A stretch of DNA of 32,282 nt, from positions 1-32,282 of the forward strand of contig CANGZW010000035.1 of assembly GCA_947458405.1 (NCBI GenBank), written 5' to 3'. The stretch is from Leptospiraceae bacterium. Lineage in GTDB: Bacteria; Spirochaetota; Leptospiria; Leptospirales; Leptospiraceae. The notes below the pieces were generated by a model. It searched no databases. It was not told where the DNA came from and saw only the letters and a list, made by a program, of their open reading frames with translations. The first letter of the stretch is position 1. Each line of letters opens with the position of its first letter. Below, one piece after another: positions 5,811 to 22,292 of the stretch. The position numbers and the translations under genes are program-made.

Positions 5811-5962
5811 GGGCAGTCCCTGACGAATATTTCGTAATACGATAAAATATTTATAATTAGATAGCAAATTCGTATTACGTCAGGTCGGGCTCTTCGGGAC
5901 TCCGCTATCGCTTCGGTCTGCATTACGGATTGCAGACTAAATCCCTACCATCCCTACTGCGG
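5811..5962 (+). repeat. Structured repeat element, copy 1 (152 bp)
   Basis: First of four copies, all in the same orientation. Fixed parts are the left end GGGCAGTCCCTGAC, a middle block starting TACGTCAGGTCGGGCT and running through CTATCGCTTCGGTCTGC, and the right end GCAGACTAAATCCC...ACTGCGG, which contains two 9-bp tandem units ATCCCTACC/ATCCCTACT. Stems: CCTGAC (5819-5824) with GTCAGG (5879-5884) around a 54-nt variable loop; GTCTGC (5916-5921) with GCAGAC (5932-5937) around 10 nt; and terminal GCAGT with ACTGC. In this copy the variable loop contains its own inverted repeat, CGTAATACGA/TCGTATTACG. The copy starts 10 bp after metH, so it may also act as a transcription terminator. Confidence 0.93.
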
Positions 5963-6488: not shown

Positions 6489-6491
6489 GTG

Positions 6492-8033
6492 ATGAAACCC
6501 GAAAAAATAAACTATATAGTTTCCAATTCTTTGGATAGGAAAAGAATAGAGAAAGAACTTAGATTTTTTTCCCCTATTATAGGGGGTAAAGTTTTAGGAT
6601 TTCTATTTCTGGCTTTTGGGATTTTTGCAGAGGATGGACACTTAAGTCATAAATCTGTATCACTTTTTGCCCTTGCAAATTATTCACAAACCCTGCCGGA
6701 AGCAGAAGTTAGGGAACTAGAAAAATTAATTTCTAGAGAGAAGTTTAGAGAATATCTACCTAAAATAGGAGTTAGTTATTTTGGACTTAAGAATAAAAAT
6801 GAAAACCAATCAGATTCCCGATACGACGAGTATCGTCTTCACTTTCAGCAACTTTTATATGATGGAGGAGAGAATGCTAGGCAAAGAGAAATTCTCCTAC
6901 TTTCAGCCAGAATGGACGGGGAAGATCGAAGATATAGACTCAATAAGTTTTTATTAGAATCACAAAAAGTATATTTTAAATGTCTTACAAATAACCTCAG
7001 GAAATTATTTAGTTATAAATCAAAAGAAAAAGCAAAATTAAATCATAGGGTTTTAGCCAAAGAGCTAGAACTCGGAACAAAAAGAAAAATTGATACCCTT
7101 GAATCAGAATTAAAATTAAGGGAATCCGAATCTCAATTATTAAAATCAAATCTAGGGTTAGAAGAATCCAATTCTGAACTCTCTCGAATTTTGGGATTGG
7201 AACGAAAAGAAATTGTCTTACGAGAAAATATCCTTTCTGATTTCATATTAATTTCTCCAGAGCCTTATTTAAATACCGAACTTTCCTCAGATTCTCCCGA
7301 AGTAAAAAAAGCAAAAATAATTTTAGAAAAGTCTAAAAATGAAAAAGAATCTTCAGAAAATTATTGGAAGCCCAAGCTCTATGTGGGGGGGTATTATGCA
7401 AAAAATTCCACTGATTCTTTAGTAACACGTCATCCTGCTTATGGAGTGGATTTTACTGTTGTACTACCACTAGGATCCTCATCCCTTCAATCTAATGGTA
7501 GATATGGAATTCAGGAAGATGGAACTGGAATACAGAGAACTCCCGGATTTGGTCCGCAATATGTTGGCTCGGGGGACAATTCCTATAATTCTTCAAACTT
7601 ACAATTATTTGATAATCTAGCTCATTCCCGTAAAATATTGGAAGGTGAAATACGAACGAATGATGCAAAACGAAATCTTCAAGAGATATCTCTAAAAACA
7701 GAATCTGAACGAATAAAAATAACCAATAAACTTATATCAAATTATGAAAATTATAAAAATAATTATCTGAGAGTTATCCTAAAAATTGAGTACTACAGAC
7801 AGTCAAATTTATCAATAAAATTAGGATTTCAAAGTAGATTGGATGTGTACAACGCCGAATGGGAAGTCTATAAATCACTGATAGAATTGGGAGAAAGTAT
7901 CGCAGAGTATATAGTCTCCGTATATGAAATTAATAGTTTTAATGGAACAGATAATTTAGATCAATATTTTCTCTATTCAAAGGGAAAGGCTCACTTGGAA
8001 TTAAAAAAAATATTAGAGGATGAAAGCAAATGA
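6492..8033 (+). CDS. TolC-family outer-membrane efflux protein
   Basis: A 513-aa protein that would form the outer-membrane channel of the tripartite pump encoded downstream. The ATG at 6492 is preferred over the adjoining GTG at 6489; GGAA at 6477-6480 is a weak ribosome-binding site. The signal sequence is unusual: a long charged N-region of about 33 residues, then a hydrophobic stretch VLGFLFLAFGIFA with a likely cut before EDG. The mature part has two long alpha-helical, heptad-rich stretches (about 110-240 and 370-490) separated by a Gly/Ser/Tyr-rich beta segment, as expected for an outer-membrane efflux (OEP) fold. Family membership is inferred from architecture and neighbours rather than a diagnostic motif. 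The TGA overlaps the next ATG by 4 bp. Confidence 0.75.
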   Translation: MKPEKINYIVSNSLDRKRIEKELRFFSPIIGGKVLGFLFLAFGIFAEDGHLSHKSVSLFALANYSQTLPEAEVRELEKLISREKFREYLPKIGVSYFGLKNKNENQSDSRYDEYRLHFQQLLYDGGENARQREILLLSARMDGEDRRYRLNKFLLESQKVYFKCLTNNLRKLFSYKSKEKAKLNHRVLAKELELGTKRKIDTLESELKLRESESQLLKSNLGLEESNSELSRILGLERKEIVLRENILSDFILISPEPYLNTELSSDSPEVKKAKIILEKSKNEKESSENYWKPKLYVGGYYAKNSTDSLVTRHPAYGVDFTVVLPLGSSSLQSNGRYGIQEDGTGIQRTPGFGPQYVGSGDNSYNSSNLQLFDNLAHSRKILEGEIRTNDAKRNLQEISLKTESERIKITNKLISNYENYKNNYLRVILKIEYYRQSNLSIKLGFQSRLDVYNAEWEVYKSLIELGESIAEYIVSVYEINSFNGTDNLDQYFLYSKGKAHLELKKILEDESK

Positions 8034-9055
8034 TTAAAATAATAATTGTAGTACTTTATTTACTTCACTGTTCAAAAATGGAAACAGAGCTGACCAAAGA
8101 TAAGCTACTTCCAGTCATATCCGATAAAAAAGATTTTAAAGTTATTTTTTCTGAGCCAAAGAATACTGAAGAGGGGATTAGTAATCAAAGGTCAATTAAG
8201 ATTAATTTTAATTCTATTCCAAAATTTGATTCGTGTTACAAAGCTTTTTCAATTGTTCCCTATGTCAGAGGCAAATTTAAAGAATATCCTCTGGGCTTGG
8301 AATTTATACCTGAATCCAGTTGGGATTCATTGACATATAGTGTTACGCTTTCTAAAACATGTGAGGATTCAGAGGGAAATGATCTATCAGATGTTCATTC
8401 TTTCTTTTTTACGGGAACTCGAATTTCGGTACTCCCTGAATCTACTCCATCAGTAACAACTTCAGAAAAAGTAATACCAATCCCTATAGTACAGGCAATC
8501 GGACTGGAAAGCCAGGGATGTAGTTCTACATATCCAGCCACAGGATCGATAACAGGAGGAGATTGGAATGCAAGCCAATGTTTTTGGGATAATTCACTAC
8601 CAGTATTACAACCAGTGAAATATTTATTTAGGGGAGGGGATAATGGTGGGGGAAGTGTAGGGAGTTCAATAGCCTGTGCGGATAGTAAGACAGATAATTT
8701 TAAGATAATTTTTTCAGAGTATATGAACCCTTCCACAGCCCAGTCCTTTCGGTTGAAGAGAAACTCTCCTCCGGCTTCCAATATTTTACTTTCATCCTGG
8801 GAATGGTTGGATTGTAAGAGCTCCGCAGGTTTTGGGTGTAGAGTCTTGGTTTTGCGCTTTTCCGAGATGGAAGCGAGTTGCAATGGGAGTCTCTTTGGGA
8901 ATTCGAGCACGGGAGGGGATTTCAATCTCCAAAGAACAGACAATGCACCTGTCGGTTATCCTACCTATACTCTCATCATGGATTCAAATTTAGCCATCTC
9001 GAGTGAGAAAAAAAAAGTGGAATCAGATTTTTATTTTTCAATGGAGGGAAAGTAA
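8030..9055 (+). CDS. Lipoprotein with two Ig-like (SbsA/Big_5-type) domains
   Basis: A 341-aa protein beginning with a short signal peptide and a lipobox, IIIVVLYLLHC-S, so lipidation at C14 is likely. Two similar beta-rich units are visible. One, at about residues 38-130, contains FKVIFSEP and ends HSFFFTGTRI. The other, at about 220-340, contains FKIIFSEYMNPST and ends SDFYFSMEG. Both resemble Ig-like domains seen in many spirochaete surface lipoproteins. A Gly/Ser-rich, cysteine-bearing linker separates them. The gene overlaps the TolC-like gene by 4 bp and its stop abuts the next ATG, so it belongs to the pump operon. A pump-associated surface protein is plausible; the true role is unknown. 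Confidence 0.7.
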   Translation: MIKIIIVVLYLLHCSKMETELTKDKLLPVISDKKDFKVIFSEPKNTEEGISNQRSIKINFNSIPKFDSCYKAFSIVPYVRGKFKEYPLGLEFIPESSWDSLTYSVTLSKTCEDSEGNDLSDVHSFFFTGTRISVLPESTPSVTTSEKVIPIPIVQAIGLESQGCSSTYPATGSITGGDWNASQCFWDNSLPVLQPVKYLFRGGDNGGGSVGSSIACADSKTDNFKIIFSEYMNPSTAQSFRLKRNSPPASNILLSSWEWLDCKSSAGFGCRVLVLRFSEMEASCNGSLFGNSSTGGDFNLQRTDNAPVGYPTYTLIMDSNLAISSEKKKVESDFYFSMEGK

Positions 9056-9703
9056 ATGAAGCTGTTACATTTTTTAAATAAGAAAAAATATATACAATGT
9101 ATAGATAAAATAGAGATATTATATAGATATAATCTTTACAATATACTACTATTATCTATCATAAATATATATAATTGTAGTATATTAGTATATAAAAATC
9201 CAATAATTAATGATAGGAATCCAATTCATATAGGATTTTTTGATTTCTCTGGTGTTAATGGTGCAAGGTATTCTAAGATACTTCGGGAAGCTATCTTCAA
9301 TCATCTGATCGAAAAAGGGTTTGCAGTGGGCATTCAAAGAGAATCTACACTGGAAAATTTGGGAAATCCAATGCCCACAAATCCGATTGAGCTTTTTGAA
9401 AAGGAAGCTAAGAGACTGCCTTTCAATAGGGGATTTGGCTCAAAAGAGGTCGGACTTTTGACTGTGGATACAACAAAAACAGTATATCTACGGGGAACAC
9501 TCTTTAGTGCCAAAGAACAGTATTCGGATGCCAATGAGATTCTTCTTTATTTGAGCCTTTGTTCCTCCTCTGGAGATGTACTACAAACAATCACTCTAAA
9601 TCAAAAAGATATTAGCCTTGCTAAATTGAACTATATTGGAAAAGAGATAGCGGATAAAATATCCATCTTTATAACTATGGAGGCTAAAAATGAAAATAAG
9701 TAA
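9056..9703 (+). CDS. Putative lipoprotein of unknown function
   Basis: A 215-aa protein whose ATG directly follows the previous stop codon. The N-terminus has about 27 polar residues, then a hydrophobic run LYNILLLSIINIYNC that could be a relaxed spirochaetal lipobox with C41 as the lipidated residue. The rest looks like a soluble alpha/beta domain: HIGFFDFSGVNG, then YSKILREAIFNHLIEKGF, later TVYLRGTLFS and ILLYLSLCSSSGDVLQT. This layout (short name-like strand, helix, final strand pair) resembles periplasmic proteins that bind envelope partners, but I do not recognise the family. The gene overlaps the next one by 14 bp. Confidence 0.6.
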   Translation: MKLLHFLNKKKYIQCIDKIEILYRYNLYNILLLSIINIYNCSILVYKNPIINDRNPIHIGFFDFSGVNGARYSKILREAIFNHLIEKGFAVGIQRESTLENLGNPMPTNPIELFEKEAKRLPFNRGFGSKEVGLLTVDTTKTVYLRGTLFSAKEQYSDANEILLYLSLCSSSGDVLQTITLNQKDISLAKLNYIGKEIADKISIFITMEAKNENK

Positions 9704-10292
9704 GATTGTACTACTAACTCCTCCTATGAAATGGAGTATTTCTGCATCCATGAAAGCCTTGAGAGAATTTTGTACCTTGTTTATTATCTATGTTGGCCTG
9801 AATTTACTTTCTTCCTATCTGCATGAAGGAAATTTATTAAGTGATACATTTAATGAAGAAATAAAAAGTTCTCTATTATATAAAATAGGAAGGTTTCCAT
9901 ATAGTAGTCTTTTGAGTATTAGTTTGATCTTTTCTTTTTTACTAATCAGTTTTATAAACAGAAAAGTAAGTATGTGGCTTTTATCGGAAAACAATTCTAA
10001 TTCTTCAAAAATATTGTCACTTGAGTTAATATCTTTTTCTTATATTCTAATATTTTTAATTGTACTACTTTTTATAAGTCTAATGATATTCTATATCAAT
10101 AGTTTAACATACCTTGAATATTTTCTTTTATTGAATATCATATTCTCGATAGGTATAATGTTAATTGGAGTACATATATATCGATATATTAAAATTTCTA
10201 AATTATGGTTTGAAGAGAGTCCCTTTAGGGCAATCTTAATTTGGTTAGCTCCTTATATTTATGTGTATTTATTTATAAAGATGGGAGTTTGA
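9690..10292 (+). CDS. Small integral membrane protein of the efflux operon
   Basis: A 200-aa protein with an amphipathic N-terminus (TPPMKWSISASMKAL) and about five hydrophobic segments near residues 25-43, 70-90, 112-135, 140-165 and 178-195. The charge pattern and length recall Yip1-like proteins, but no motif proves it. It sits between the lipoproteins and the membrane-fusion protein, overlapping the former by 14 bp and ending 1 bp before the latter, so coexpression is nearly certain. The function is unknown; an assembly or accessory role for the pump is inference. Confidence 0.6.
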   Translation: MKISKIVLLTPPMKWSISASMKALREFCTLFIIYVGLNLLSSYLHEGNLLSDTFNEEIKSSLLYKIGRFPYSSLLSISLIFSFLLISFINRKVSMWLLSENNSNSSKILSLELISFSYILIFLIVLLFISLMIFYINSLTYLEYFLLLNIIFSIGIMLIGVHIYRYIKISKLWFEESPFRAILIWLAPYIYVYLFIKMGV

Positions 10293-10293
10293 A

Positions 10294-11646
10294 ATGAAAA
10301 AGATAATAAAAAAATGGAAGCGTTATGTGTTATTAATTCTTTTTTTTGGATTTTTTGGATTTTCGAAGCTATTTCCCTATCTATCAAAATATTTTCCTGA
10401 TAAATCTTTGAGTACTAAAATTCCTAAGGTAAAAACTTTCGTCGCCCATTATGAAGAGGATAATAAGTTTATACCCATCTATGGAATTTTGGAACCAAGT
10501 GAAATTGAAGAAATCACTCCTAAATATTCGGGTGTGATTGAAAAATTTTATGTAGAGGAGGGTGATACAGTCAAAAAAGGACAGGCTTTATTTAAAATGA
10601 GCACTTCTGTTTTGAAAGCAGAGGTAGAAAAACAGAGATTTGCAACAAAAATTGCGGAATCTCAGGTTAGAATCCAAAGGGAGAAGATTAAAAAGGTTAA
10701 GAAATTATTTTTAACAAAAGTTTTGGAGTACAAAAAATATAAAAATCTAGAAGCCAGATCTATTTTAGAGAATGATAGATCGCTTTCTCTCTTATCACTA
10801 AAATCAGAGCTATTTAAAGAGGGAATTATATCTGCCGAAGACTTAAAATCAGTGAATTTCGAGAAAAAAAATAAAGAACTGCAGATGAATAACTCTGAAA
10901 TCGATTCAGAAATAGCCAGTATTCCTCTAAACGATAACTATTATCATAATTCGGAATTTTTGCATAAACTAGGTAGTACGTTTAAAGATAGTGCAATAAC
11001 AGAAGAATCGGAACTGTCCGCATCAGAGTCAAATTTAAAACTCGCAAACCAACAATTAACAATGATGGAAGAACAATTAAAATCTTCAATTATAACTTGT
11101 CCAATTGACGGAAGAGTCTTAAAGAAGAAAAAAAATCAAGGGGAATATATACCTATAAATTCAAATTCTATTATGAGTATAGGTGTGATACTAAAATTAA
11201 AAGCAGTTTTTACTTTAGGGGAATTGGACTCTTTTAAAATCAAAAAAGGAAACAAAATTACTATCCAAACAGATGTGATTGAAAATAGGGAATGGAATGG
11301 GAGAGTGCTCAATATAAATCCATTATTTGAAGAAAAAATATTTTCGAGTAAAATCAAAGCAGAAATAGAAAATATAGACTATGTACTACACCCTGGAATC
11401 TATTTCAAAGGCAAACTTTATTTAGAAGAGAGTGAGTTATCTATTTATATACCTGAGAGTGCACTCTTTTCGGGAGAATATATTTACATTTATGAAAATA
11501 ATACAGCAAAAAAAAGGAAAATTGAATATACCCTTTCAAGTGAAAATCGAATAAAAATTATCTCGGGTCTAAATGATAAAGAAGAAATTATAATACAGGG
11601 AAAAGAAGATATTCAGGATGGAATGAAGATCATAAGGGAACTATGA
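10294..11646 (+). CDS. RND efflux membrane-fusion (periplasmic adaptor) protein
   Basis: A 450-aa adaptor linking an inner-membrane RND pump to a TolC-like channel. It has an N-terminal membrane anchor (about 11-30, VLLILFFGFFGF). A first half of a lipoyl/barrel-sandwich domain follows near residues 68-105, with YSGVIEKFYVEEGDTVKKGQALFKM. A long alpha-helical hairpin spans about 105-265, and the second lipoyl half reads SSIITCPIDGRVLKKK near 268. Beta-barrel and membrane-proximal domains complete the C-terminus, including SGEYIYIYENNTA and IQDGMKIIREL. A GGGAG ribosome-binding site precedes the ATG. The stop overlaps the first pump gene in ATGA. Confidence 0.88.
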   Translation: MKKIIKKWKRYVLLILFFGFFGFSKLFPYLSKYFPDKSLSTKIPKVKTFVAHYEEDNKFIPIYGILEPSEIEEITPKYSGVIEKFYVEEGDTVKKGQALFKMSTSVLKAEVEKQRFATKIAESQVRIQREKIKKVKKLFLTKVLEYKKYKNLEARSILENDRSLSLLSLKSELFKEGIISAEDLKSVNFEKKNKELQMNNSEIDSEIASIPLNDNYYHNSEFLHKLGSTFKDSAITEESELSASESNLKLANQQLTMMEEQLKSSIITCPIDGRVLKKKKNQGEYIPINSNSIMSIGVILKLKAVFTLGELDSFKIKKGNKITIQTDVIENREWNGRVLNINPLFEEKIFSSKIKAEIENIDYVLHPGIYFKGKLYLEESELSIYIPESALFSGEYIYIYENNTAKKRKIEYTLSSENRIKIISGLNDKEEIIIQGKEDIQDGMKIIREL

Positions 11647-14456
11647 TAAAACTATTTGAATATATTAGAGATAAGAGAAAGTCGATTTTATTGATAATAT
11701 TGATTTTATGTTTGAATGGACTTATCTCCCTATATGTAAATAAAAAAGAGAATATTCCCTATCAGAAGTTTCATGGTTTCAAATTAGAGGTTTTTTATCC
11801 GGAGGGAACACCAGAGATTATTGAATCCTTAATTACTTCTAAATTAGTTGAAATTTTAATTTCCTTAGATTATGTAAAAAATATATATTCCACATCGAGT
11901 TATGGAAAATCAGAAATTGTATTTGATACAGATGAAGACGAGTTAAACACTATTCTAGAAAAAGTTGAAAGATCATGGGATCAGTTTGTTAAAGAGGTAT
12001 CACAACCAATTATTAGTTCACTGGAATTTAGCGATTCAGCATTTTTAAAAATTGCAATTTTAAATGAAAATCCGGGGGAACTCCAAGAAATTAAAAAAGA
12101 AATCCTAAGGATTGAAGGGGTTAAACATGTAACAGGAAAAGAAAATTCTCTCGAAGAAATTATAGAATATGATGATAACAAACTAGAATTAATAGGTCTT
12201 ACACATAAAACTCTATCTTCTTATTTTAGCAATGAATCAAAAAAATCATATTTAGGAAACTTAAGAGAAAAATCAAGTGATAAAGGAGTCATGAGTCGTG
12301 GTATATTTATTGAGCCTTCTCAAAATATAAATAGCATTCCTTTTTATGTTCCTTTTTCTTCCTTTTCAGAGAGAAAAATTATAGAAAGAAAAGAAAAAAC
12401 TTTTTATAATGGGAAGCCTACAACTGTTCTTTCCATTTCTTTACATACCTGGGAAAGTATATTTTCAATTTCTAATCAAATAATAAGTATTCTAGATGGT
12501 CATACAAATATCAATTATAAAGTAGTTTATAATAAAATAGACTATTCACTTAAAAATATTCATGAATTTATATACTCACTATTGATAACACTGAGTATAT
12601 GTATTATATATAATTACACTCTATACAAAAATAAAAAAATAACTTATCTTCTTATCTCTATCAGTATCATTACCCTTTTGATTACTTTTTTAGTCCATTA
12701 TTTACTAGATAAATCCCTAAATTTATACACATTTACGGGGATATCCTTAGCTGTAGGGATGTTATTTGATAATTCCAATACAATTTTTATTTTATTGAGC
12801 TCAAAAAGAAGTACGGAAAGGATGAAAATCTTTAACAATTTACAATTGAGTCTGCGATCTTCTCTTTTTTCTTTATTAACTACGATAATTGTTTTTTTAC
12901 CAATTTTTAGTTTAAAATCTCGTGTTGCCTATATATTAAAAGAGATATGTTTTTCGTTTATGATTATGCTAATCATAAATTATATTATCACGTATTTAGT
13001 AGTAGTATTATCCCTAAATGAAAAAGATTCTATTGTTTTTTTCGTGAATAAAACTATCGAAAATAGGAGTTTCCACATAAAAAATATTTATAATAAATAT
13101 ATAAAAAAATATAACATAAATATACAAACAATAATGATTCTGTTTACCATATTACTATCTATATTATTATTTAGTTTTTCTCCAAAGAGCATTTATCCAA
13201 AAAGTAAAGTTGGGGGTATATTTTTAAAATTAGAAATTGCAAATGAAAACTCCAGAAATATAAAAAATATTCCAGAAGAATTTGATAGATATTTAGGTAA
13301 GAGTCTAGATATATCAAGTTATATTCGAAAAGATTCCATAAATTTATCAGAATGGACTATTATTTTTGCTAAGCCATTATTAGAAACTGAAATCTCAGAT
13401 CTACTTCAAAAATTTGGATGTGAGGTTTGCAAAATATCTTACATCAATTTAGATTCGATTTCAAACGAAATAATATTTAGTGAAATGAATAATGAAATAT
13501 TAGTATTTCAAGATATAGATCAATTTGAATTAAAAAATCAACTCGATGAAAATAAAACCAATAAAAATATAAGTAATTATACATTTCTTTCAAATCAAAA
13601 AATTAATATACTTAGCCCTAAATTAGAAAAAATAAGTATTACAATACAAAAAGATAATAAAATCAGAGATATATTTAAAAATTCTCAGAAGATGTATATC
13701 ACAGTATTAGATAATAACACTAAAAAAGAAAATAGTATTCCCATAGTTAGTAGAGAGGATAAACACTTTAATTTAGAACAAAATATCCAAGATTATTATA
13801 AATCGACTCAAAAAGAAGCTAATGTTATACATTCAAGAGGAGGGATTTCATATTTACCAATTCGGTTTGATGGTAGCAATGAAAATTTATTGAATAATCT
13901 AGAGAAAAAATTTCCAATCAATAGATTTGAGCTACGAGAAGAACGAGCTACAAATGAAATTATATTTGAATTGATTAAATCACTAATATTATCTATTTTA
14001 CTCTTGTTCTTATTTATATACTATATATATGAATCTATATATTTTTGTATTTTAATATTGAGCTCATTGCTTTTTGTTGTTTCGATTTCAATCATAGCAA
14101 TATTTCTGTTTTGTTCAACATTCAATGTAACTTCTTACTTGGGGATTATTTTACTTTCCGGGCTTTCGGTAGATTCTATAATTCTTTTTTTAGAAAAGTT
14201 GGATACTACAAAATCAATCAATCTAAGACTAATCCTAAAAATAAAAAAAGAAATTAAACCCATCGTCAAAATCAATATTTATACTACACTTTTTGGATTA
14301 ATAAGTATAATAATCGTTTCTGGTGTATATCACTTTCAATCTGGCCTTGTGATACCAATCTTAGGCGGTTTGGCTGGATTGTATTTTTATTTTGAATATA
14401 TATTTCCCTACTTACTACTCACTATTTTTAAATTTACAAAAAAATATGAATCTTAA
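11643..14456 (+). CDS. RND-family efflux pump subunit 1 (complete)
   Basis: A 937-aa inner-membrane transporter of the AcrB/MMPL-like RND superfamily, near full length. TM1 is at about 15-32, followed by periplasmic domain 1 (SEIVFDTDEDELNT resembles the AcrB porter region). TM2-6 lie at about 310-455, TM7 at about 495-515, periplasmic domain 2 after that, and TM8-12 at about 775-930. TM4 contains LAVGMLFDNSNTIFILL: D376 is followed by N377 where typical RND pumps have Asp-Asp. TM10 reads LSVDSIILFLEKL, with D844 near the site of the AcrB lysine. The proton relay is therefore altered, and metal- or lipid-type substrates cannot be excluded. The gene is coupled to the MFP gene upstream and overlaps the second pump gene by 11 bp. 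Confidence 0.87.
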   Translation: MIKLFEYIRDKRKSILLIILILCLNGLISLYVNKKENIPYQKFHGFKLEVFYPEGTPEIIESLITSKLVEILISLDYVKNIYSTSSYGKSEIVFDTDEDELNTILEKVERSWDQFVKEVSQPIISSLEFSDSAFLKIAILNENPGELQEIKKEILRIEGVKHVTGKENSLEEIIEYDDNKLELIGLTHKTLSSYFSNESKKSYLGNLREKSSDKGVMSRGIFIEPSQNINSIPFYVPFSSFSERKIIERKEKTFYNGKPTTVLSISLHTWESIFSISNQIISILDGHTNINYKVVYNKIDYSLKNIHEFIYSLLITLSICIIYNYTLYKNKKITYLLISISIITLLITFLVHYLLDKSLNLYTFTGISLAVGMLFDNSNTIFILLSSKRSTERMKIFNNLQLSLRSSLFSLLTTIIVFLPIFSLKSRVAYILKEICFSFMIMLIINYIITYLVVVLSLNEKDSIVFFVNKTIENRSFHIKNIYNKYIKKYNINIQTIMILFTILLSILLFSFSPKSIYPKSKVGGIFLKLEIANENSRNIKNIPEEFDRYLGKSLDISSYIRKDSINLSEWTIIFAKPLLETEISDLLQKFGCEVCKISYINLDSISNEIIFSEMNNEILVFQDIDQFELKNQLDENKTNKNISNYTFLSNQKINILSPKLEKISITIQKDNKIRDIFKNSQKMYITVLDNNTKKENSIPIVSREDKHFNLEQNIQDYYKSTQKEANVIHSRGGISYLPIRFDGSNENLLNNLEKKFPINRFELREERATNEIIFELIKSLILSILLLFLFIYYIYESIYFCILILSSLLFVVSISIIAIFLFCSTFNVTSYLGIILLSGLSVDSIILFLEKLDTTKSINLRLILKIKKEIKPIVKINIYTTLFGLISIIIVSGVYHFQSGLVIPILGGLAGLYFYFEYIFPYLLLTIFKFTKKYES

Positions 14457-16929
14457 AATATTTAGAATAGTATTAGTAATCTCCAAAAAAATGAAAATTC
14501 TCTCTATAATTTTGTGGATATTACTCTTATATCTCCTACCTGAATACAAATTCAATATCTTTCCAATGGACAAAAACAATGATATTATCATTGAAAGCTC
14601 TACTCCCATGATCAGTCAGACAGTTATAGAAGATGTAATTACAAACCCTCTAGAATCAATACTTTCAACAAAAAATTACATTCAGTCTTATGAAACAATG
14701 ATTGAAAATGGTAGGTTTAGGATAAAAGTCACTCTTCATGATAAAATTGAGCCTTTGACTGTAATCCAAAATTTAAAAAGAGAAATAGTTACTTTAGAGA
14801 AAAATCTACCATCTGAATATTCTAGAATCCGAATATTTAAACATTCATCTGAAGATGAACCCGACCTTATTTTTGCCTTTGATAGTGATACGCTTTCAAA
14901 ATCTTATATTCTATCACACTTAAAAGTTAATTTAATAAAAGCAATTTTAAATCATAATGGAGTTAAACAGGTAAAAATATATGGAAATGAAAAGTACAAT
15001 TATTCTTTAAATTATGATTCTAAAAAAATATTTCTCCAAAAAGTAAATACTTCTCAACTATTATTAGATTTATCGAATATAACTAGTCAAATGCTTGATA
15101 AAGACAATACAAATAGAGTAGAGGGATGGAATCCTCTCTTAGATTATAAGGATAAAATTCAACTAACTAGAAATATAGTAATGTCTTCTGATTCATTTGC
15201 TATTAAAAAAGAAAAGAGTATAAGCACGGGAATTCATAGAATTAATTCAAAAGAGTTAGCAGTTATTTGTATATACTCAGATAATTTTTTAACCTCCACC
15301 TATTTATATAATTTGATTCAATTTAATACTTTTTTAAATTTCTATTCTCTCTCGGAAGATGTAAAAATTATTCCAATATATTTTTCTTTTTATCAAAATA
15401 TTAAATATACAATTGAAAATGTAATATTTATACTAGTGCCTGTTTTATTTATTTTATTAAAATATATTCATAAAAAAAAATATTTTCTCATTCAATTTAT
15501 TCGCTCCACTCTAAATTCATTACCGATTTTATTTTTTTCTATATATTTAATGGATAAAAATATAGATATCAGTTTGGTATATTCTTTAATTTATTCATTT
15601 TTATTTATTTATTTTAACTTATCTAAATTGAATTCTATTCAAAATCCAAAAAAATATTTTAAAATATATCTAGAGTTATTCATTAAATTAATTATAAATA
15701 GTATAATAATCTATTTAATTATAAAAATACTTAAGGAAAATGGAACTTTAGTTTTTAAGATATTAATCCAATACATTAGTTTTACTTTGTACTTCATATT
15801 TCATTACTTATTATTTAAACCAGAAAAAAAGTACAGTTACTCAATTAGATTTATTTCATTTCAAATATTCAAAATTATTTCTTTCATTTTGAATCACTTA
15901 GTAAAACTCAATAATCATATCAATTCAATTTTTAATAATAAATTTAGTAAATTAAAGATATATACAGAAAGATTTAATGAATTACATAAAAAATATCAAA
16001 ATAGAATTCCAAATTATAGCTATTCCCTAATCATATTTTTACTTTTTTTGAGTATTTGTAAATTAATTTCTATCGATTTTCCTTCCCAAAAAGGAGAGGT
16101 AATTATGGGAATTTTAGAAATGCCTTCCGGATATAATCTAAGTAATACAGAATCCATCTCGAGAATTATAGAATCCAATCTCCTATCCACAAGAAAAGTA
16201 TTTCAAATATATTCTCATATTCAAAATGAACATGTAAAATACTACTTAAAATTGAATGAAAATGAGGAACTATCAAAAGCGGAATTAAAACAAATCTCCA
16301 AATTAGCAAATCCCGGTTATTTTTATATATCTTCGCAAAACAACAAAAATAATACCCAAGAGATTCAATTCATTGCTAATAATTATAACACTATCCAAAA
16401 ATCTATATCACTCTTCACAAAAAAAATATTACAATCCAATCCAGAAGTGGAAGTGATACTAAAGTACAAGCCTCCCTTTCAGAATCTACTCATGACACCC
16501 GATTCACAAAAATTATCCTTTGCTAATATACCACCATCTTCTTTTTCATATAATACGAAAATTCAACTTTCTGGAGCAATTTTTACTAGAATATTTGAGA
16601 AAGATGAAATAGTAGACTTTCGACTACAAGATAAAAATAAACCAATCGCAATAAATCACTGGAATAATGATTTTCAAACTCATAATCAAAGTATACTATA
16701 TAATAACAATTACTCTGACTTTCAATACATTGAAGAATTTTCTATTTATAGAAAAAAAAATGGAAAGAAAATTCTTTCTCTCCTATTGAAAGATTTTAAA
16801 GATCAAGATTTCTTAACCGAAGTAATAAATGAATTAGAAAAATCAAATGAAGTAGTGATACAAATTATAAATTCTCAAGTCAAAGATTCGTATTTATATT
16901 TATTTATACTGTCAATTTTATTACTTTAA
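14446..16929 (+). pseudogene. RND-family pump subunit 2, lacking TM8-TM12 (3'-truncated)
   Basis: 827 aa from the ATG at 14446, which overlaps the previous gene by 11 bp; a TTG further upstream is unlikely. The protein follows RND topology: TM1 near 16-30, a porter domain, TM2-6 at about 315-450, TM7 near 530-550 (YSLIIFLLFLSICKLI), then a second periplasmic domain. It stops just after entering TM8 (YLYLFILSILLL), so about 190 residues with five helices are missing. The following 100 bp does not encode them in any frame, and repeat copy 2 begins at 17030. The TM4 region (YSLIYSFLFIYFNLSKL) has no acidic residue. Even intact, it would be a non-proton-translocating partner in a heteromeric pump. 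It is AT-rich even for this window. Confidence 0.7.
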
Positions 16930-17029
16930 AAAAGGAGTGCTAGAAAGAAAAGTCAGTCAATTTGATTTATGAGAAAAGGGAAGAAGTAAGAAAACGCCAT
17001 TTGTGGCTTGATCTTTTTAAATAACCCTT

Positions 17030-17177
17030 GGGCAGTCCCTGACAATCAATAGTATACATAAGTTCACTATTGTTATAATTACATAATCGTAGTACGTCAG
17101 GTCGGGCTCTTCGGGACTCCGCTATCGCTTCGGTCTGCGGAAGAGTGCAGACTAAATCCCTACCATCCCTACTGCGG
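17030..17177 (+). repeat. Structured repeat element, copy 2 (148 bp)
   Basis: Same fixed blocks and orientation as the copy after metH. CCTGAC (17038-17043) pairs with GTCAGG (17096-17101) around a 52-nt loop that contains its own inverted repeat CAATAGT/ACTATTG. The GTCTGC/GCAGAC hairpin has an 8-nt loop. A truncated pump gene lies 100 bp to the left and a broken Uma2-family gene about 100 bp to the right. Confidence 0.93.
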
Positions 17178-17280
17178 TACTCATATTTACCCATGTGTTT
17201 TATCATGGAGAAAAAAGATGGGATCTAGGAGAGAACTTTCTGGATAACTTTCCAGTAGAGACCATTAATCTCCCAGACAT

Positions 17281-17700
17281 GCTACCTTAGTTCTCCTTCT
17301 TTCTCAAATATTTTTTCAAAAGCTTCCCATTACTTTTCATGTAAGAACAGAACAACCCATTACCCTCTCCCATTCAGAGCCAGAACCAGACCTAGCAATA
17401 GTGCGTGGACAAATTAGGGAGTATTCACAGAGTCATCCAGTATCTGCAGAACTTGTGATTGAAGTATCTCTAAGCACCCTAGCAGAAGATCGTGAGATGG
17501 CAAATATATATGCAGAGGCTACTATTCCAGAGTACTGGCTTTTTAACTTGAATACCAATACAGTGGAAGCATACTCAAAACCCATAGGCGGAAGATACTC
17601 TGAGATGAAAACCTTTCAAAAAAGTGAAATAATTTTCCCCCTTAATTTTCCTCAAACTAAACTAAACTTATCTTATCTGAAATATTTTAAGATTACATAA
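17281..17700 (+). pseudogene. Uma2-family (PD-(D/E)XK-like) endonuclease, 5'-truncated
   Basis: Codons in one frame from about 17281 give a recognisable Uma2 core. QPITLSHSEPEPDLAIVRG carries the family PD motif, HPVSAELVIEVSLSTLAEDR carries the second acidic strand, and NIYAEATIPEYWLFNL and VEAYSKPI complete the domain to the stop at 17700. The N-terminal third, including the usual ELIDGE segment with the first catalytic Glu, is missing. In-frame stops occur at 17245 and 17263, and no start codon with a ribosome-binding site is in position. The GTG at 17401 lies inside the domain. The gene is probably a remnant left beside repeat copy 2. Uma2 proteins are mostly uncharacterised. Confidence 0.7.
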
Positions 17701-17782
17701 CAAATTTAATCAATTTCTGTTCGATAAAATTTGTCCCCAATGCAATGTATAAATTTAAAAAAATATTTCCATAAATCCATAA

Positions 17783-17811
17783 ATATGGGAATATGGGAAT
17801 ATGGAAATATG
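17783..17811 (+). repeat. Short AATATGGG-type tandem repeat at the antitoxin start
   Basis: Units of about 8 bp (AAATATGGG, AATATGGG, AATATGG, AAATATG) lead into the antitoxin ATG at 17809 and contain the G-rich bases that would serve as ribosome-binding site. Several units also offer in-frame or out-of-frame ATGs. Slippage here could change translation of the antitoxin. Confidence 0.55.
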
Positions 17812-18063
17812 AAAACTACAGTTGAAATAAAAGATCATCTTTATCAAACCCTCAAGTTAAAGTCGGTGCAAGAAAATCGTAAAATAAATGAGTTGATGAA
17901 TGAATCTCTCTCTCTTTATTTAGGGATTTCGTTTCCAAAAAAAGTACAGAAACAACACCCCGTTCAGCATCCTATTCTTTCTTCTAAATCTAAAAAGGTC
18001 TTATTTGGGGGTATCTCGTCAGAAGAGATGCATACTTTAATTTCGAAAGAGAGTTTACCTTGA
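17809..18063 (+). CDS. vapB: Antitoxin of a VapBC-type module (ribbon-helix-helix-like)
   Basis: 84 aa from the ATG at 17809. An upstream in-frame ATG (17731) would add 26 residues translated from repetitive DNA and is less likely. The N-terminus MKTTVEIKDHLYQTLKLKSVQENRKI followed by NELMNESLSLYLG looks like a beta strand and two helices of an RHH DNA-binding domain. The C-terminal half, rich in Lys/Gln/Pro, would wrap around the toxin. The stop codon overlaps the TTG start of the PIN-domain toxin (TTGA), which is classic toxin-antitoxin coupling. The protein is expected to neutralise the VapC RNase and repress its own operon. Confidence 0.75.
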   Translation: MKTTVEIKDHLYQTLKLKSVQENRKINELMNESLSLYLGISFPKKVQKQHPVQHPILSSKSKKVLFGGISSEEMHTLISKESLP

Positions 18064-18497
18064 AGCACTTCCTCATAGATACAAATGTACTACTTGCAGA
18101 TGTGCTAGATTTTCATGTTCATCATATCCTAGCTAGGGAATGGTTTTTCAACCAGGATAGTGATACAATATTCTATTTGCCTAGGGTTGTTCAAATCTCT
18201 TTCTTGAGACTCCTAAACTCAGAATCTGTTCTAAAAGAAGACGCGGTTACTAACCAAAGAGCAATAGAAGTATGGGAAAAACTTTTGTTGGATACAAGGT
18301 TTCAATATTTACCTGATAAAAATTATACACTTCAAAAATGGCCTTTTTTAGGAAATAAACAAAAAAAGGATCCCAAACTTTGGATGGACGGATACTTAGC
18401 AGGACTTGCCATAGAAAATTCCCTGGTTCTGGTTAGCCTTGATAAAGGATTTAAAAAAATGAAACAGGATGGATTAGTCCTTAAATGCTTATTGTGA
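18060..18497 (+). CDS. vapC: VapC-type PIN-domain ribonuclease toxin
   Basis: A 145-aa PIN-domain protein. The first acidic site is in MKHFLIDTNVLL (D7, with T8/N9). Later conserved acids occur in the TNQRAIEVWEKLL helix region, in KLWMDGYLAGLA, and in VSLDKGFKK near the C-terminus. PIN toxins are Mg-dependent RNases that cut tRNA or rRNA when freed from antitoxin. Translation starts at TTG (18060), overlapping the antitoxin stop, so synthesis depends on antitoxin translation. All catalytic acids appear present, so the module looks intact. Confidence 0.88.
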   Translation: MKHFLIDTNVLLADVLDFHVHHILAREWFFNQDSDTIFYLPRVVQISFLRLLNSESVLKEDAVTNQRAIEVWEKLLLDTRFQYLPDKNYTLQKWPFLGNKQKKDPKLWMDGYLAGLAIENSLVLVSLDKGFKKMKQDGLVLKCLL

Positions 18498-18712
18498 GAA
18501 ATACCCATCATTTACCAAAATCGATCTCAAGCATCTAATCTCGCTATAAATATAGAGAAATGGAATTACCATTCAGCTAATGAAAGAAGGTGTTAATAAC
18601 TTAGGTAATAACTCAGCGTGTTCGTAAATAATTCAAAAAATTATTTTTTTTAATTTCAATTCTTCTTTAATCTTAGGATCTCTTTGTTACTTTTTTCTTC
18701 TCTTTATGAAAA

Positions 18713-18901
18713 GAGAAGAAGAAAGTAAACAATCTTGCACTAGAAGAGAAAAGGAAGCTCGCCAATAGAATCATTGCAGACCTTTCCAGACAAAAAATTG
18801 ATGTAGATGTACTTTTGAAAAACATGGATGACGTACTAAAGGTTTACCAGAAACCCTTTAGCATCGTTAAATCTGCTATAGAGACAGGATTACTTATATA
18901 A
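18713..18901 (+). pseudogene. MNT-type nucleotidyltransferase, C-terminal remnant
   Basis: An open frame of about 62 codons without a start codon (a TGA lies directly upstream). The segment KLANRIIADLSRQKIDVDVL...PFSIVKSAIETGLLI matches the last third of the minimal nucleotidyltransferase at 19172-19522 (shared K-L, V-D-V, P, I-E-T and final L positions). The GSR...DSDYDL catalytic half is gone. The stop is followed one base later by the ATG of a HEPN-like reading frame, as in intact MNT/HEPN modules. This points to a degraded toxin-antitoxin pair. Confidence 0.6.
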
Positions 18902-18902
18902 A

Positions 18903-18957
18903 ATGGATCATTACTTAAAAAACTGGATTTTTAAGGCAACTGAAGATTTGAGCCCTC
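18903..18957 (+). pseudogene. HEPN-domain toxin, N-terminal stub cut by repeat copy 3
   Basis: ATG at 18903 starts MDHYLKNWIFKATEDLS, which fits the first helix of a HEPN domain (the usual pattern is LxxWLxKAxxDL). The frame then runs straight into the repeat element at 18958 and stops at about 18980. It follows an MNT remnant, so the two are the leftover of an MNT/HEPN module. The identification rests on one helix plus context. Confidence 0.5.
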
Positions 18958-19107
18958 GGGCAGTCCCTGACAACTTATAAATACAAATAAATTTACTATT
19001 AAATAGAATGCTATTCTTAGTACGTCAGGTCGGGCTGTTCGGGACTCCGCTATCGCTTCGGTCTGCGATACAGATTGCAGACTAAATCCCTACCATCCCT
19101 ACTGCGG
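18958..19107 (+). repeat. Structured repeat element, copy 3 (150 bp)
   Basis: Same fixed blocks and orientation as the other copies. CCTGAC (18966-18971) pairs with GTCAGG (19024-19029) around a 52-nt loop that holds a different small hairpin, AGAAT/ATTCT. The GTCTGC/GCAGAC hairpin has a 10-nt loop. Its left end follows directly on the HEPN stub. Its right edge takes part in a 9-bp inverted repeat, GGGAGTTTT (19106-19114) / AAAACTCCC (19150-19158), that could terminate the converging MNT gene. Confidence 0.93.
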
Positions 19108-19171
19108 GAGTTTTTTCTGATATTTTAAAGTATTACAAAACTATTTCCTAAAACTCCCAAAAATCCGGCAT

Positions 19172-19522
19172 TCACTTGCTAGATCGTTGTTTATCATAAA
19201 GTATAAAACCCTTTGTTTCAATTTGTTGGTAGACCAAATACGGATTATCCTTTAGCTCTAGAAATTTTTCAGGAGTTTCTACAATTACATCCACACAGAG
19301 TCCAGAGCCATACAGCAATCTATAAATCTCTTGTGTTAACTTTCTTCGATGTACCACATCTTTTTTGAGGACGCACAAATCGTAATCACTATCCTTGTGA
19401 AAAAAATCTGTTGCCCTTGATCCAAATAAAATAATTTTATCGGGATCAATCTTTGTAACGATGATTGTAATTAACTTTTGAATCGCTTCTTGTTCTATTA
19501 CTTTTTGATCTGCGACTGTCAT
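19172..19522 (-). CDS. MNT-type nucleotidyltransferase (antitoxin of a MNT/HEPN module), orphan
   Basis: A 116-aa minimal nucleotidyltransferase of the DNA polymerase beta superfamily. The signature ILFGSRATDFFHKDSDYDL (about 31-49) carries the Gly-Ser loop and metal ligands D46 and D48, and a third acidic position is offered by D77 in CVDVIVE. MNT antitoxins AMPylate or otherwise silence a HEPN RNase partner that is normally encoded next door. Here the downstream side leads to repeat copy 3 after 64 bp and no HEPN gene follows, so the partner is missing. The start ATG overlaps the TGA of a 33-codon frame (ATGA), which implies coupled translation. Confidence 0.85.
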   Translation of the reverse strand: MTVADQKVIEQEAIQKLITIIVTKIDPDKIILFGSRATDFFHKDSDYDLCVLKKDVVHRRKLTQEIYRLLYGSGLCVDVIVETPEKFLELKDNPYLVYQQIETKGFILYDKQRSSK

Positions 19523-19620
19523 AAACTCACACCTTCTACTATTTTTATCTCTTCCTCGGTTAATCCATAGAGGTGTCTGCCGACGGCTTTAAGGCTTCGC
19601 CTTAAAAATCCATATTTCAT
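19519..19620 (-). other. 33-codon reading frame coupled to the MNT gene (gene tail or small leader)
   Basis: ATG at 19620, preceded by AGAGGG, opens a 33-residue frame ending in KAVGRHLYGLTEEEIKIVEGVSL. The ending resembles the last residues of many N6-adenine DNA methylases or other large proteins (LYGLTEEE-I-IVE). It may therefore be an internally deleted gene whose start and end remain, or a coincidental small leader. The TGA overlaps the MNT start. Inside it, TTTAAGGC-TTC-GCCTTAAA (19588-19606) is a perfect 8-bp hairpin with a 3-nt loop. Confidence 0.4.
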
Positions 19621-19759
19621 TTTACATTACCCTCTATTATTTGTTATGCGGATCGGAGCGCATATACAAGAAAGGCTACTTTCTATACCCAATTCTACTG
19701 TGGATCAATTCTTTATAGTTTATTACCTATCAAGATTTCCAGCAATACTATAATTATGT

Positions 19760-19836
19760 ATATAATCATAAAACTAGATGGATTTTTGTTTTAAAGTAAG
19801 ATTCACTATCATTGGTTACACAGACTATTTTCCACT
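19760..19836 (+). repeat. 77-bp direct repeat, left copy (flanks HicAB)
   Basis: Begins ATATAATCATAAA and ends GACTATTTTCCACT, with an identical 28-bp core containing AAAGTAAGATTCACTATC. It matches 20705-20780 with only a handful of differences and one length change. The two copies are direct and lie on either side of the HicAB pair. Confidence 0.88.
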
Positions 19837-20090
19837 ATTCTAAGTATTTCTAAAATAAAGTAAAAAAGTTTTACAATTCATAAAAGTCCCAATGCTGAAT
19901 AAAGTATCCTTAAAAAGTTAGTCTCAAAAATCCTGATAGCTAGTTCTGTTTTTGGAAATCTTTTTTTAGATAACTTGTCATGCGTGATTAAGGGATAATC
20001 TTTCGTAAATTAAAAACCTAAATAAAAAAAAGAAAGTTTAGCTCTTCACGGTGAGTGTCAAATCCAGAAAAAAATGGGATGTTAATAGAT

Positions 20091-20131
20091 ATTTGATCAA
20101 ATTTTTCTTGCAATCTATTTATTAAATAGAT
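20091..20131. promoter_or_regulatory. Two palindromes upstream of hicA, candidate operator
   Basis: ATTTGATCAAAT (20091-20102) is a perfect 12-bp palindrome. ATCTATTTATTAAATAGAT (20113-20131) is a 9-bp inverted repeat around one base. Both lie within 90 bp of the hicA start and are placed as expected for autoregulation of a toxin-antitoxin operon. AT-rich DNA makes chance palindromes common, but the 19-bp one is notable. Confidence 0.45.
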
Positions 20132-20176
20132 ACTTTTAATAAGTATTCAAATTACATTTGTTAATAGGTTTAAAAA

Positions 20177-20437
20177 TTGAGTAAGTTTAATAAAATACTC
20201 TTAAAAGTACTATCAGGCAATTCAGATTCAAATATTTCATTTGATGATTTAAAGTCTATTTTAAATCATCTTGGTTTTGATGAAAGAATCAAGAGTAGTC
20301 ATCATATTTACAGTAAAGAAAATATTGATGAAATTATAAATTTGCAACCAAGTGGTTCTAAGGCAAAGTCTTACCAGGTTAAACAAGTAAGGAATATAAT
20401 ACTTAAATATCGTTTAGGAGAATTTTTAGATGAATAA
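20177..20437 (+). CDS. hicA: HicA-type mRNA interferase toxin
   Basis: An 86-aa HicA-like protein with a dsRBD-like fold. The segment ISFDDLKSILNHLGFDER leads to SSHHIYSK, which contains the catalytic His of the family, and the tail is QVKQVRNIILKYRLGEFL. The start is a TTG at 20177 with a weak AGG upstream. HicA toxins cleave mRNA and tmRNA when not bound by HicB. The gene overlaps hicB by 8 bp. Confidence 0.85.
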   Translation: MSKFNKILLKVLSGNSDSNISFDDLKSILNHLGFDERIKSSHHIYSKENIDEIINLQPSGSKAKSYQVKQVRNIILKYRLGEFLDE

Positions 20438-20645
20438 TGTCAAATATGAAATCATAATCTATTGGAGTGAAGAAGATAATTCCTATATTGCTGAAGTTCC
20501 CGAACTACCTGGATGTATGGCTGATGGAAATACTTATTATGAAGTCATTGAAAATATTCAAGTTGTAATGAATGAATGGATCGAAACAGCCAAATCACTT
20601 GGTAGGAAAATTCCTGAACCAAAAGGTAAATTAATGTATGCTTAA
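20430..20645 (+). CDS. hicB: HicB-type antitoxin (short form)
   Basis: A 71-aa antitoxin with the HicB partial RNase H-like fold: YEIIIYWSEEDNSYIAEVPELPGCMADGNTYYEVIENIQVVMNEWIETAK is the family hallmark. AGGAGA (20416-20421) precedes the ATG. The protein ends at PEPKGKLMYA and has no C-terminal HTH or RHH domain, unlike longer HicB proteins. DNA binding and autoregulation are therefore not evident from its sequence. Confidence 0.88.
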   Translation: MNNVKYEIIIYWSEEDNSYIAEVPELPGCMADGNTYYEVIENIQVVMNEWIETAKSLGRKIPEPKGKLMYA

Positions 20646-21044
20646 GTAATCACAAGTAATATCATTGTCTTTTAATATCTTGAGGATAAATATTATATAT
20701 TTTTATATAATCATAAACTAAACAGATTTTTATCTTAAAGTAAGATTCACTATCATTGGTTATACAGACTATTTTCCACTTCAGTTTTTGAAACTTTATC
20801 TGAACTTTTTCTAAAGCAATGAGTAAGAACGATAAAGTCTTTATAAATGAAAAAATATAAAATTCTGATTTGTTCTCCTGATAATTTTATTCTTAGCTCA
20901 TGTATCTCTGCTATCGATAAATTCCATCACTGAGCAATCGCCAGCAGATGTCTCATAGTAAACAATTTCAATTTTACGTCATATATGATGTATATAAATT
21001 AAAAAAATAATAAAAAAATCACTTTTAACGGAGGCTTAAAAACT
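20646..21044. other. Intergenic region after HicAB
   Basis: About 400 bp with no credible gene. It holds the right copy of the 77-bp direct repeat (20705-20780); the remainder is AT-rich and without clear features up to the attC-like site. Confidence 0.6.
20705..20780 (+). repeat. 77-bp direct repeat, right copy (flanks HicAB)
   Basis: Second copy of the repeat found at 19760-19836, same orientation, sharing the core AAAGTAAGATTCACTATC and the end GACTATTTTCCACT. The spacing between the copies is about 870 bp and includes exactly the HicAB genes with their upstream palindromes. Confidence 0.88.
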
Positions 21045-21150
21045 GGCATCTAACGTTCCTTGGCTAAACGATGTTGGTTGGAGTGTACTCGCGGAAGCCA
21101 ATGTGCCGCAGGCCGAAAGCGTAGCGGAGCGTTTAGCCAATATTAAGTGA
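21045..21150 (+). repeat. attC-like inverted-repeat site (possibly degenerate integron cassette end)
   Basis: A GC-richer island of about 105 bp. A perfect 11-bp inverted repeat, TTGGCTAAACG (21060-21070) / CGTTTAGCCAA (21130-21140), encloses a partly palindromic middle containing GGAAGCC and GGCCGAAAGCG. To the left, ATCTAAC (21048-21054) fits the integron R'' consensus RYYYAAC. To the right, ATTAAGT (21142-21148) fits GTTRRRY except for the first base, which is the crossover G. The spacing to the right arm is shorter than usual. It lies 3' of hicAB in the orientation expected of a cassette end. No integrase gene is in the window, so attC identity is tentative. Confidence 0.45.
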
Positions 21151-21308
21151 CGTGTTCATTTTTAACATGATGTACGTTTCATTAGATTCAGCAAATATTT
21201 TGAAGTTATATTTCAAATATAAATTAACTGCTCGATTTGATTTATGAAGTGCATTACCAGCGAAAGTCCATCCCGAAACGGTAATACAATACTATATATC
21301 ATTCTTGC

Positions 21309-21614: not shown

Positions 21615-21623
21615 AAATCCTCT

Positions 21624-21905: not shown

Positions 21906-22020
21906 ACAATAGTAATAGCGGATAACTAATACTGGTGTCAAGCACTATTATTTCTATATTTTTCTTTATGCAGAACCACTTCTTTCGGGAATCTTAAAAG
22001 CCTTATTAAAGGCTAAGATT

Positions 22021-22095
22021 TCAAAATAAGGACCCCCCATCCCTAACATAAAATCTCCGAAATACAACCAACCCAATTGGAGACACAGCCAATAT
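22021..22095 (-). pseudogene. C-terminal remnant of an MFS transporter beside repeat copy 4
   Basis: On the minus strand one frame reads AVSPIGLVVFRRFYVRDGGSLF then stop (TGA at 22023-22021). It matches the C-terminus of the intact MFS transporter ending at 30015 (SPLGLVVFRGFYVRERG). The DNA at 22040-22085 and 30025-30070 differs by about 8 of 46 bases. Homology ends upstream at about 22095, just before repeat copy 4. The rest of the gene is lost. Confidence 0.7.
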
Positions 22096-22107
22096 TTAAT
22101 AATATAC

Positions 22108-22257: not shown

Positions 22258-22292
22258 TATTGGAGTATTTTTTATATACTATGAGGACATTT

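Follow-up and report, generated by a model that had tools for sequence, protein, structure and literature searches.

The locus considered here raises the question of whether two very unequal permeases can together form a pump. The window, by which the whole stretch of DNA analysed is meant, is 32,282 nucleotides long and is the entire contig CANGZW010000035.1 of a 3.94-Mb Leptospiraceae draft genome (GCA_947458405.1, 198 contigs). It holds two adjacent genes for permeases of the resistance-nodulation-division (RND) family. The first permease, subunit 1, keeps the residues of a proton relay. The second, subunit 2, has no acidic residue in the core of transmembrane helix 4 (TM4) and ends inside TM8. 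We lean towards reading the pair as a highly diverged asymmetric two-subunit RND pump, conserved in part of one spirochaete order, whose passive subunit has lost an unconstrained part.

Asymmetry of the pair and its conservation in the order

Both proteins belong to the Pfam family ACR_tran, with scores of 104.4 bits for subunit 1 and 54.7 bits for subunit 2 against a curated cut-off of 28. Subunit 1 was aligned through TM12; the two-half layout of 12 helices is not found in both proteins, as subunit 2 is short. At AcrB positions 407, 408, 940 and 978, subunit 1 has D, N, D and N. The initial annotation had named an Asp-Asn pair at residues 376-377 and an Asp near the usual TM10 Lys. Both were found, with D376 at the position of AcrB D407, N377 at that of D408, and D844 aligned with AcrB K940. 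Its further view that Asp-Asn is an altered relay was not borne out. The TM4 pair was compared among 77 aligned RND proteins, all from genomes of the same phylum, and it was DN in 34, DS in 10, DG in 9, DA in 5, DC in 4 and DD in 2. As DN is the commonest form, the TM4 of subunit 1 is not altered. The unusual feature of subunit 1 is the TM10 acid, since Asp stands there in 9 of the 77 proteins.

The core of TM4 in subunit 2 lacks an acid, as had been claimed, and the relay columns are occupied by Tyr-Phe. The nearby D392 (numbered on the 845-aa form) stands at the start of the helix, roughly 14 residues ahead of the relay position. That numbering follows the listed open reading frame (ORF), which starts at a TTG at 14392 and is merely the longest ORF; the likely start is the ATG at 14446, which gives an 11-base overlap with subunit 1, and the profile match spans 14446-16926. 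The protein ends with ...FILSILLL and a stop. The claimed loss of TM8-12 was correct for TM9-12 and overstated for TM8, as the stop lies within that helix and part of it remains, most of it being absent. The frame is not a chance ORF: no in-frame stop occurs in 827 codons, against a mean of 72.7 and a minimum of 45 in 500 base shuffles.

Tandem pairs were collected by subunit-2 profile searches and by reading of the fetched loci, and they occur in many spirochaetes. Some of these searches scored two candidates per genome, and the order-level search scored nearly all. Thirty genomes of the order were searched, and TM4 of the best matches was read in all except eleven (G001, G003, G006, G009, G010, G014, G015 and G019-G022, with best matches of 4e-104 or weaker and none in G009), so that the count is a lower bound. 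An asymmetric pair was found in at least 8 of the 30 genomes. These are the window, G002 and G007 in the same family, and G008, G011, G012, G013 and G016 in a sister family. In the window and in all seven relatives, subunit 2 is without a TM4 acid, and subunit 1 has both a TM4 acid and a TM10 Asp. The six relatives that were aligned show the matching subunit-1 pattern D/E, N/S, D, N at 407, 408, 940 and 978. The TM10 Asp was thus present in the first subunit of 8/8 pairs whose second subunit lacks the TM4 acid, and in 1 of 26 other first subunits of tandem pairs. This single case among those read is a symmetric-type first subunit of G012 (L121:8119-11310, minus strand; VVDS), whose partner keeps the TM4 Asp. 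In nine further pairs from outside the order, the second subunit always keeps the TM4 Asp, and no first subunit has a TM10 Asp, one of these proteins being cut before TM4.

Sequence comparison indicates that the asymmetry is inherited. The earlier likening of the pair to a heteromeric pump with only one energised subunit is supported by the same asymmetry in seven further genomes of this order. Subunit 2's lack of a TM4 acid had been taken as part of its damage, a view that is not supported, as full-length homologues are also without this acid. Nor do homologues naturally end at the point of truncation, as all seven asymmetric second subunits of the relatives are full length (951-1083 aa). A contig search with window subunit 1 alone found no relative. 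When seven aligned subunits were used, ten loci were recovered. Seven were the same relatives, two were of Bacillota type at 27% identity, and one was gammaproteobacterial at 22% identity.

Constraint was compared domain by domain. In the second subunits of the seven relatives, 40 of 294 columns are invariant in the N-porter and 33 of 269 in the C-porter (73/563 together), against 1 of 172 in TM2-7 (1-3 depending on the alignment mode) and 0 of 117 in TM8-12. In contrast, TM8-12 has 62 invariant columns of 161 in six asymmetric first subunits and, among symmetric pairs, 29 of 152 in seven second subunits. The subunit-1 domain counts leave out G007, whose gene is interrupted by the start of its contig. 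TM8 of the relatives' second subunits is somewhat alike, with 34% mean identity. These counts indicate that, at the level of sequence, the loss of the relay in subunit 2 is accompanied by the loss of most selection on the membrane domain, and that the periplasmic part is still selected. Since TM8-12 is the least conserved region among the relatives, the piece missing from window subunit 2 is the least constrained part of the protein; the truncation itself is seen in none of the seven relatives.

A working model and the divergence of the window copy

In the proposed pump, subunit 1 would be the proton engine, relying on a TM4 carboxylate and on another in TM10, at the position of AcrB Lys940. 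Subunit 2, without a relay, would most likely be a passive, substrate-handling protomer moved by subunit 1; the passive role is proposed because its membrane domain is almost unconstrained and its porter is conserved in the relatives. The two subunits may assemble into a mixed trimer with one adaptor and one TolC channel. Protons would pass through subunit 1, whose movements would power the porter of subunit 2. The loss of TM8-12 from subunit 2 in this genome would be due to a rearrangement close to a dispersed repeat. We infer that the pump of the window retains function of some kind.

Several observations weigh against this model. An RND fold would normally be expected to collapse without TM8-12. 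The eight asymmetric pairs are one lineage, and the coupling of their traits is one evolutionary event; an account by eight independent events of TM10-Asp gain and TM4-acid loss was dropped for the same reason. A second subunit outside the order, in G202, has lost the TM4 acid while its partner has Asn in TM10. In the window copy, the conserved Arg of subunit 1 (AcrB 973) is Lys, TM11 has a one-residue insertion, and the C-porter was not recognisable in place by the domain profiles of the relatives. The structure models of both subunits are poor, with predicted local distance difference test (pLDDT) values of 56 and 48. A Foldseek search with the weak subunit-2 model returned RND pumps (best E 1e-25, TM-score 0.53), which confirms the fold only.

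The G202 pair was not counted as asymmetric. Its second subunit (L059:9256-12276, plus strand) has Ser-Ser in place of the TM4 Asp and an otherwise normal motif, and perhaps represents an independent, earlier stage of relay loss. Another tandem pair, in G204, has its second subunit split into two overlapping ORFs of 519 and 659 aa (L075:5829-9060, plus strand), possibly by a frameshift or an assembly fault.

Early decay is a strong rival to a derived asymmetric pump, and we give it a real though lesser chance. Under decay, the pump is dead or dying: constraint was lost, the subunits drifted, a rearrangement cut subunit 2, and the open frames are recent survivors. The divergence of the window copy agrees with this and likewise weighs against the proposed pump. 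The two window subunits sit on end branches of 4.8 and 6.5 changes per column, whereas the median is 0.58. Of the 174 columns that are identical across the seven other first subunits, subunit 1 keeps 54 (31%); omitting the relatives one by one gave 73-100%. On a fixed five-taxon tree, the ratio of the window branch to the G002 branch was 2.2 for TolC, 2.3 for Big_5, 1.9 for the adaptor and 2.6 for subunit 2, and it reached 6.9 for subunit 1. Subunit 1 as a whole has thus changed about 3-fold more than the accessory genes, and the excess extends to all four of its domains, with ratios of 4.8 in the N-porter, 4.4 in TM2-7 and 9.0 in TM8-12; the C-porter ratio is not usable, as its G002 branch is 0.05. 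Base composition points the same way. GC is 0.25/0.24 in the window RND genes and GC at the first codon position (GC1) is 0.30/0.29, below the 0.33-0.37 and 0.44-0.50 of five other RND genes of the genome. The truncation also lies near gene relics and a repeat.

Against decay, both frames are free of stops over 937 and 827 codons despite more than 2 changes per site, and the five genes 5' of the pair are open ORFs. The TM4 and TM10 motifs of subunit 1 keep 13 of 16 invariant columns, against 41 of 158 elsewhere in the protein (Fisher 2e-5); the motif limits were chosen after the named residues were known, and wider limits gave 16/26 against 38/148 (p 5e-4). The TM11 Asn typical of the asymmetric group is also retained. 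Profiles made from the relatives still match subunit 1 at TM2-7 (3e-16) and TM8-12 (4e-11), and subunit 2 at the N-porter (1.5e-11) and C-porter (9e-24); the TM2-7 profile gave no match in subunit 2. Low GC is not peculiar to this copy either, since the pair of the same-family G002 has 0.27/0.27.

Phylogenetic placement of the window copy gave mixed results. The full-length tree with the window rows held 26 sequences, and the domain trees held 29 and 30. Window subunit 2, on a long branch of the full-length tree, clusters with the asymmetric second subunits of the relatives, with a support of 100 in the SH-like approximate likelihood ratio test (SH-aLRT). Subunit 1 has a very long branch in the full-length tree and is placed outside the group of asymmetric first subunits, which again tells against the proposed pump; constraining it inside them was not rejected by the approximately unbiased test (p-AU 0.336). 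Its TM2-7 region fits the proposal: among 75 proteins, it is matched best by the seven asymmetric first subunits, and the TM2-7 tree places it with six first subunits (SH-aLRT 99; the five nearest rows are asymmetric), the alternative placement likewise not being rejected (p-AU 0.13).

The N-porter of subunit 1 behaves differently and speaks against the proposal. Its best eight matches comprise seven second subunits and one unpaired protein; it scored 39.8 bits with the subunit-2 profile and 13.6 bits with the subunit-1 profile; and its tree places it with the second subunits (alternative not rejected, p-AU 0.43). For the whole subunit-1 protein, the best single match is the second subunit of G102. 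Residues 34-300 (window 11742-12542) are therefore second-subunit-like, and TM2-7 is like asymmetric first subunits. Judged from these sequences, an exchange between the two RND genes possibly explains the N-porter likeness and part of the long branch.

The possible N-porter mosaic, the missing C-porter of subunit 1 and the lost TM8-12 of subunit 2 together suggest an extreme division of labour; the more sober alternative is decay in frames that are still unbroken. A more specific and rather doubtful version of the asymmetric pump is that the two proteins are complementary half-machines. Subunit 1 would be a proton engine without a recognisable C-porter and with a second-subunit-like N-porter, perhaps acquired by recombination between the two genes. 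Subunit 2 would hold both porter lobes on a cut helix bundle, and the two would pump only as a mixed complex.

The truncation and the remaining alternatives

A sequencing error at the stop at 16929 had been offered as one explanation of the truncation. The three frames 3' of the stop were read, and no credible subunit-2 C-terminus was found. A tblastn search of the whole window with the C-termini of six relatives (all except G008) gave matches at chance level (best E 0.067 at 25451-25540). As no TM8-12 homology lies downstream, the truncation is not a point error, and a frameshift or point error at the stop was excluded. A rearrangement is the likely cause.

A faulty assembly is an improbable cause: a wrong join after subunit 2 would hide a real, full-length gene. 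The genome is a draft in many contigs, and a multicopy repeat of about 150 nt lies 100 bases downstream, which would favour such a join. The cut, however, lies in single-copy sequence 100 bases before the repeat, and a join at the repeat alone would spare the gene end. A profile of the seven C-termini was also run over the genome, and no orphan C-terminus stood out among its six matches at E <= 1, although so diverged a piece could be missed. The best four matches lie in long open frames (1010-1148 aa) of other RND-sized genes, and the other two are weak (E 0.035 and 0.35).

Slimmer still is the prospect that subunit 1 works alone as a homotrimer and that this genome retains subunit 2 only as a dispensable relic. 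The relay is found and retained in subunit 1 only, and the second-subunit-like N-porter looks as though that part had been taken over. The C-porters argue the other way. That of subunit 1 is unrecognisable, 51 residues shorter, and keeps 6 of 33 invariant columns (8 in one alignment mode), but subunit 2 retains its own C-porter with 16 of 33, the reverse of the pattern expected if subunit 1 were self-sufficient.

The least probable account is that the operon was acquired horizontally from an unsampled low-GC lineage rather than accelerated in place: its GC is lower than that of the flanks and direct repeats lie on both sides, but its Big_5 and TolC proteins are moderately similar to those of G002 in the same family (53% identity over 191 aa and 38%) while the RND genes are extreme, and the pump regions of the family members G002 and G007 are also AT-rich (GC 0.29 and 0.32).

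Relation to known pumps, operon and surroundings

The asymmetric pump that we favour was compared with known systems. Subunit 1 resembles CusA in having one TM4 acid at the D407 position and a TM10 acid at the K940 position (Glu in CusA, Asp here). In CusA these two acids form the relay. CusA-type heavy-metal pumps differ in that they have a single permease gene and are distant in the tree. Descent from the heavy-metal efflux (HME) clade is not indicated, since the two subunits scored 14.5 and 16.3 bits with TIGR00914 against a cut-off of 701. The symmetric tandem pairs of other spirochaetes belong to the same first- and second-subunit lineages, with a similar operon in G102. They differ in that their second subunits keep the TM4 Asp (G202 excepted) and a conserved membrane domain, and that TM10 nearly always carries Asn.

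The heterotrimeric pumps MdtBC, MuxBC and SmeJK (hydrophobe/amphiphile efflux (HAE-1) Clade B) likewise have tandem permease genes and one adaptor, the gene arrangement that is also present here. Passages in PMC4338810 and PMC10872679 describe a similar division of labour for MdtBC, with one subunit mainly energising. According to passages in PMC4338810, relay mutations do more harm in MdtB than in its partner MdtC, which is regarded as the main site of substrate binding. MdtB and MdtC, however, both keep D407, D408 and K940, whereas the spirochaete subunit 1 has D-N and D and subunit 2 has none of them. With a relay-less second subunit and an almost unconstrained membrane domain, the asymmetric pair is a more extreme counterpart. 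By analogy, the simplest reading is that it may represent an MdtBC-like division of labour fixed by evolution.

The origin of the pair was analysed in a quick tree, from which the window rows and the asymmetric pair of G013 were omitted and in which 13 other pairs were used. The 19 first subunits all fall together (SH-aLRT 98), and the 19 second subunits make up a separate clade (SH-aLRT 100). MdtB and MdtC pair together (SH-aLRT 100) beside AcrB and apart from both spirochaete clades, so that descent from the MdtBC duplication is not indicated. As the three clades are separate, the spirochaete tandem pair appears, from its sequences, to have arisen by a duplication separate from that of MdtB/MdtC.

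A survey of 6205 RND proteins assigns all of its 203 tandem permease pairs to one HAE-1 clade, and the stem "spirochaet" is absent from its main text (PMC10872679). Spirochaete pairs from another duplication would contrast with that single clade. A search of open-licence literature for spirochaete, Leptospira, Leptospirales, tandem and degenerate-subunit topics gave, among the titles listed, none that describes such an asymmetric RND pump. In the standard model of homotrimeric RND pumps, as outlined in passages of PMC4338810 and PMC12802153, the three protomers are functionally identical, and work-sharing within mixed trimers is there described as still unclear. If the proposed reading is true, a natural pump with a relay-less, membrane-unconstrained and porter-keeping partner would make work-sharing testable without engineered mutants.

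The seven genes at bases 6489-16929, from the TolC-like channel through the two permeases, look like one operon (Table 1). The TolC-like gene matches the TolC gene of an operon in Leptospiraceae MS012 (phmmer E 7e-91). In 6 of 7 relatives an adaptor homologue immediately precedes subunit 1; in the remaining one, the contig is cut. Big_5 homologues were found near 4 of the 7 related pumps (G002, G011, G012 and G016) within the stretches fetched.

Table 1 Coordinates of the pump genes, their relay residues and the sequences around the break in the window.
Feature	Positions	Strand	Evidence
Dispersed repeat of about 150 nt, 5' flank of operon	5811..5962	+	Repeat comparison
TolC-like outer-membrane channel gene, first of pump operon	6489..8033	+	Pfam OEP, E 6e-12
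Big_5 (Ig-like) lipoprotein-type gene	8030..9055	+	Pfam Big_5, E 7e-8
Small lipoprotein-like gene, without family	9056..9703	+	No match in Pfam and NCBIfam
200-aa hydrophobic protein, probably membrane, without family	9690..10292	+	Sequence; no match in Pfam and NCBIfam
RND periplasmic adaptor (membrane fusion protein)	10294..11646	+	TIGR01730, 182.7 bits (cut-off 94.9)
RND subunit 1, 937 aa, energised	11643..14456	+	ACR_tran, E 5e-30; relay residues kept
D376-N377 codons, TM4, AcrB D407-D408 positions	12768..12773	+	Alignment with E. coli AcrB, MdtB, MdtC and CusA
D844 codon, TM10, AcrB K940 position	14172..14174	+	Alignment with E. coli AcrB, MdtB, MdtC and CusA
RND subunit 2, non-energised, truncated in TM8, 827 aa from ATG 14446	14446..16929	+	ACR_tran, E 5e-15
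Subunit-2 TM4, core without acidic residue	15562..15630	+	Sequence, alignment
Unique spacer, truncation point to repeat	16930..17029	+	No second copy found in genome
Dispersed repeat of about 150 nt, 3' flank of operon	17030..17180	+	Same orientation as copy at 5811

The repeat of about 150 nt occurs in four copies of one orientation in the window, the two that flank the operon and two more at 18953-19107 and 22108-22259. Four more near-complete and two partial copies lie on other contigs, giving a genome total of eight near-complete and two partial copies. The ends of the repeat are constant, GGGCAGTCCCTGAC ... CATCCCTACTGC, and enclose a variable AT-rich stretch. Seven of the 17 repeat-search matches belong to a different short repeat beside the 17030 copy, at about 17182-17260. 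A fold was predicted for the repeat, though it is hardly supported by covariation (1 of 28 pairs) and has a z-score of -1.8, and Rfam at gathering thresholds gave no match in the window, the repeat included. An integron origin of the flanking repeat was rejected, as the search found no integrase above the cut-off. Signals below the cut-off were obtained in all 14 control genomes too, and the weak integrase-type matches are therefore probably ordinary tyrosine recombinases.

Downstream of the operon, positions 17401-22290 hold small defence or toxin-antitoxin genes and relics between the repeats: a 5'-truncated Uma2, RH3/PIN, a nucleotidyltransferase, HicA/HicB and HTH/HigB. They are followed on the minus strand by a restriction island at 22293-29929, with an MmeI-like type IIG enzyme, the PADLOC candidate pair PDC-M02A/M02B, a DEAD helicase and a T5orf172 (GIY-YIG-like) protein.

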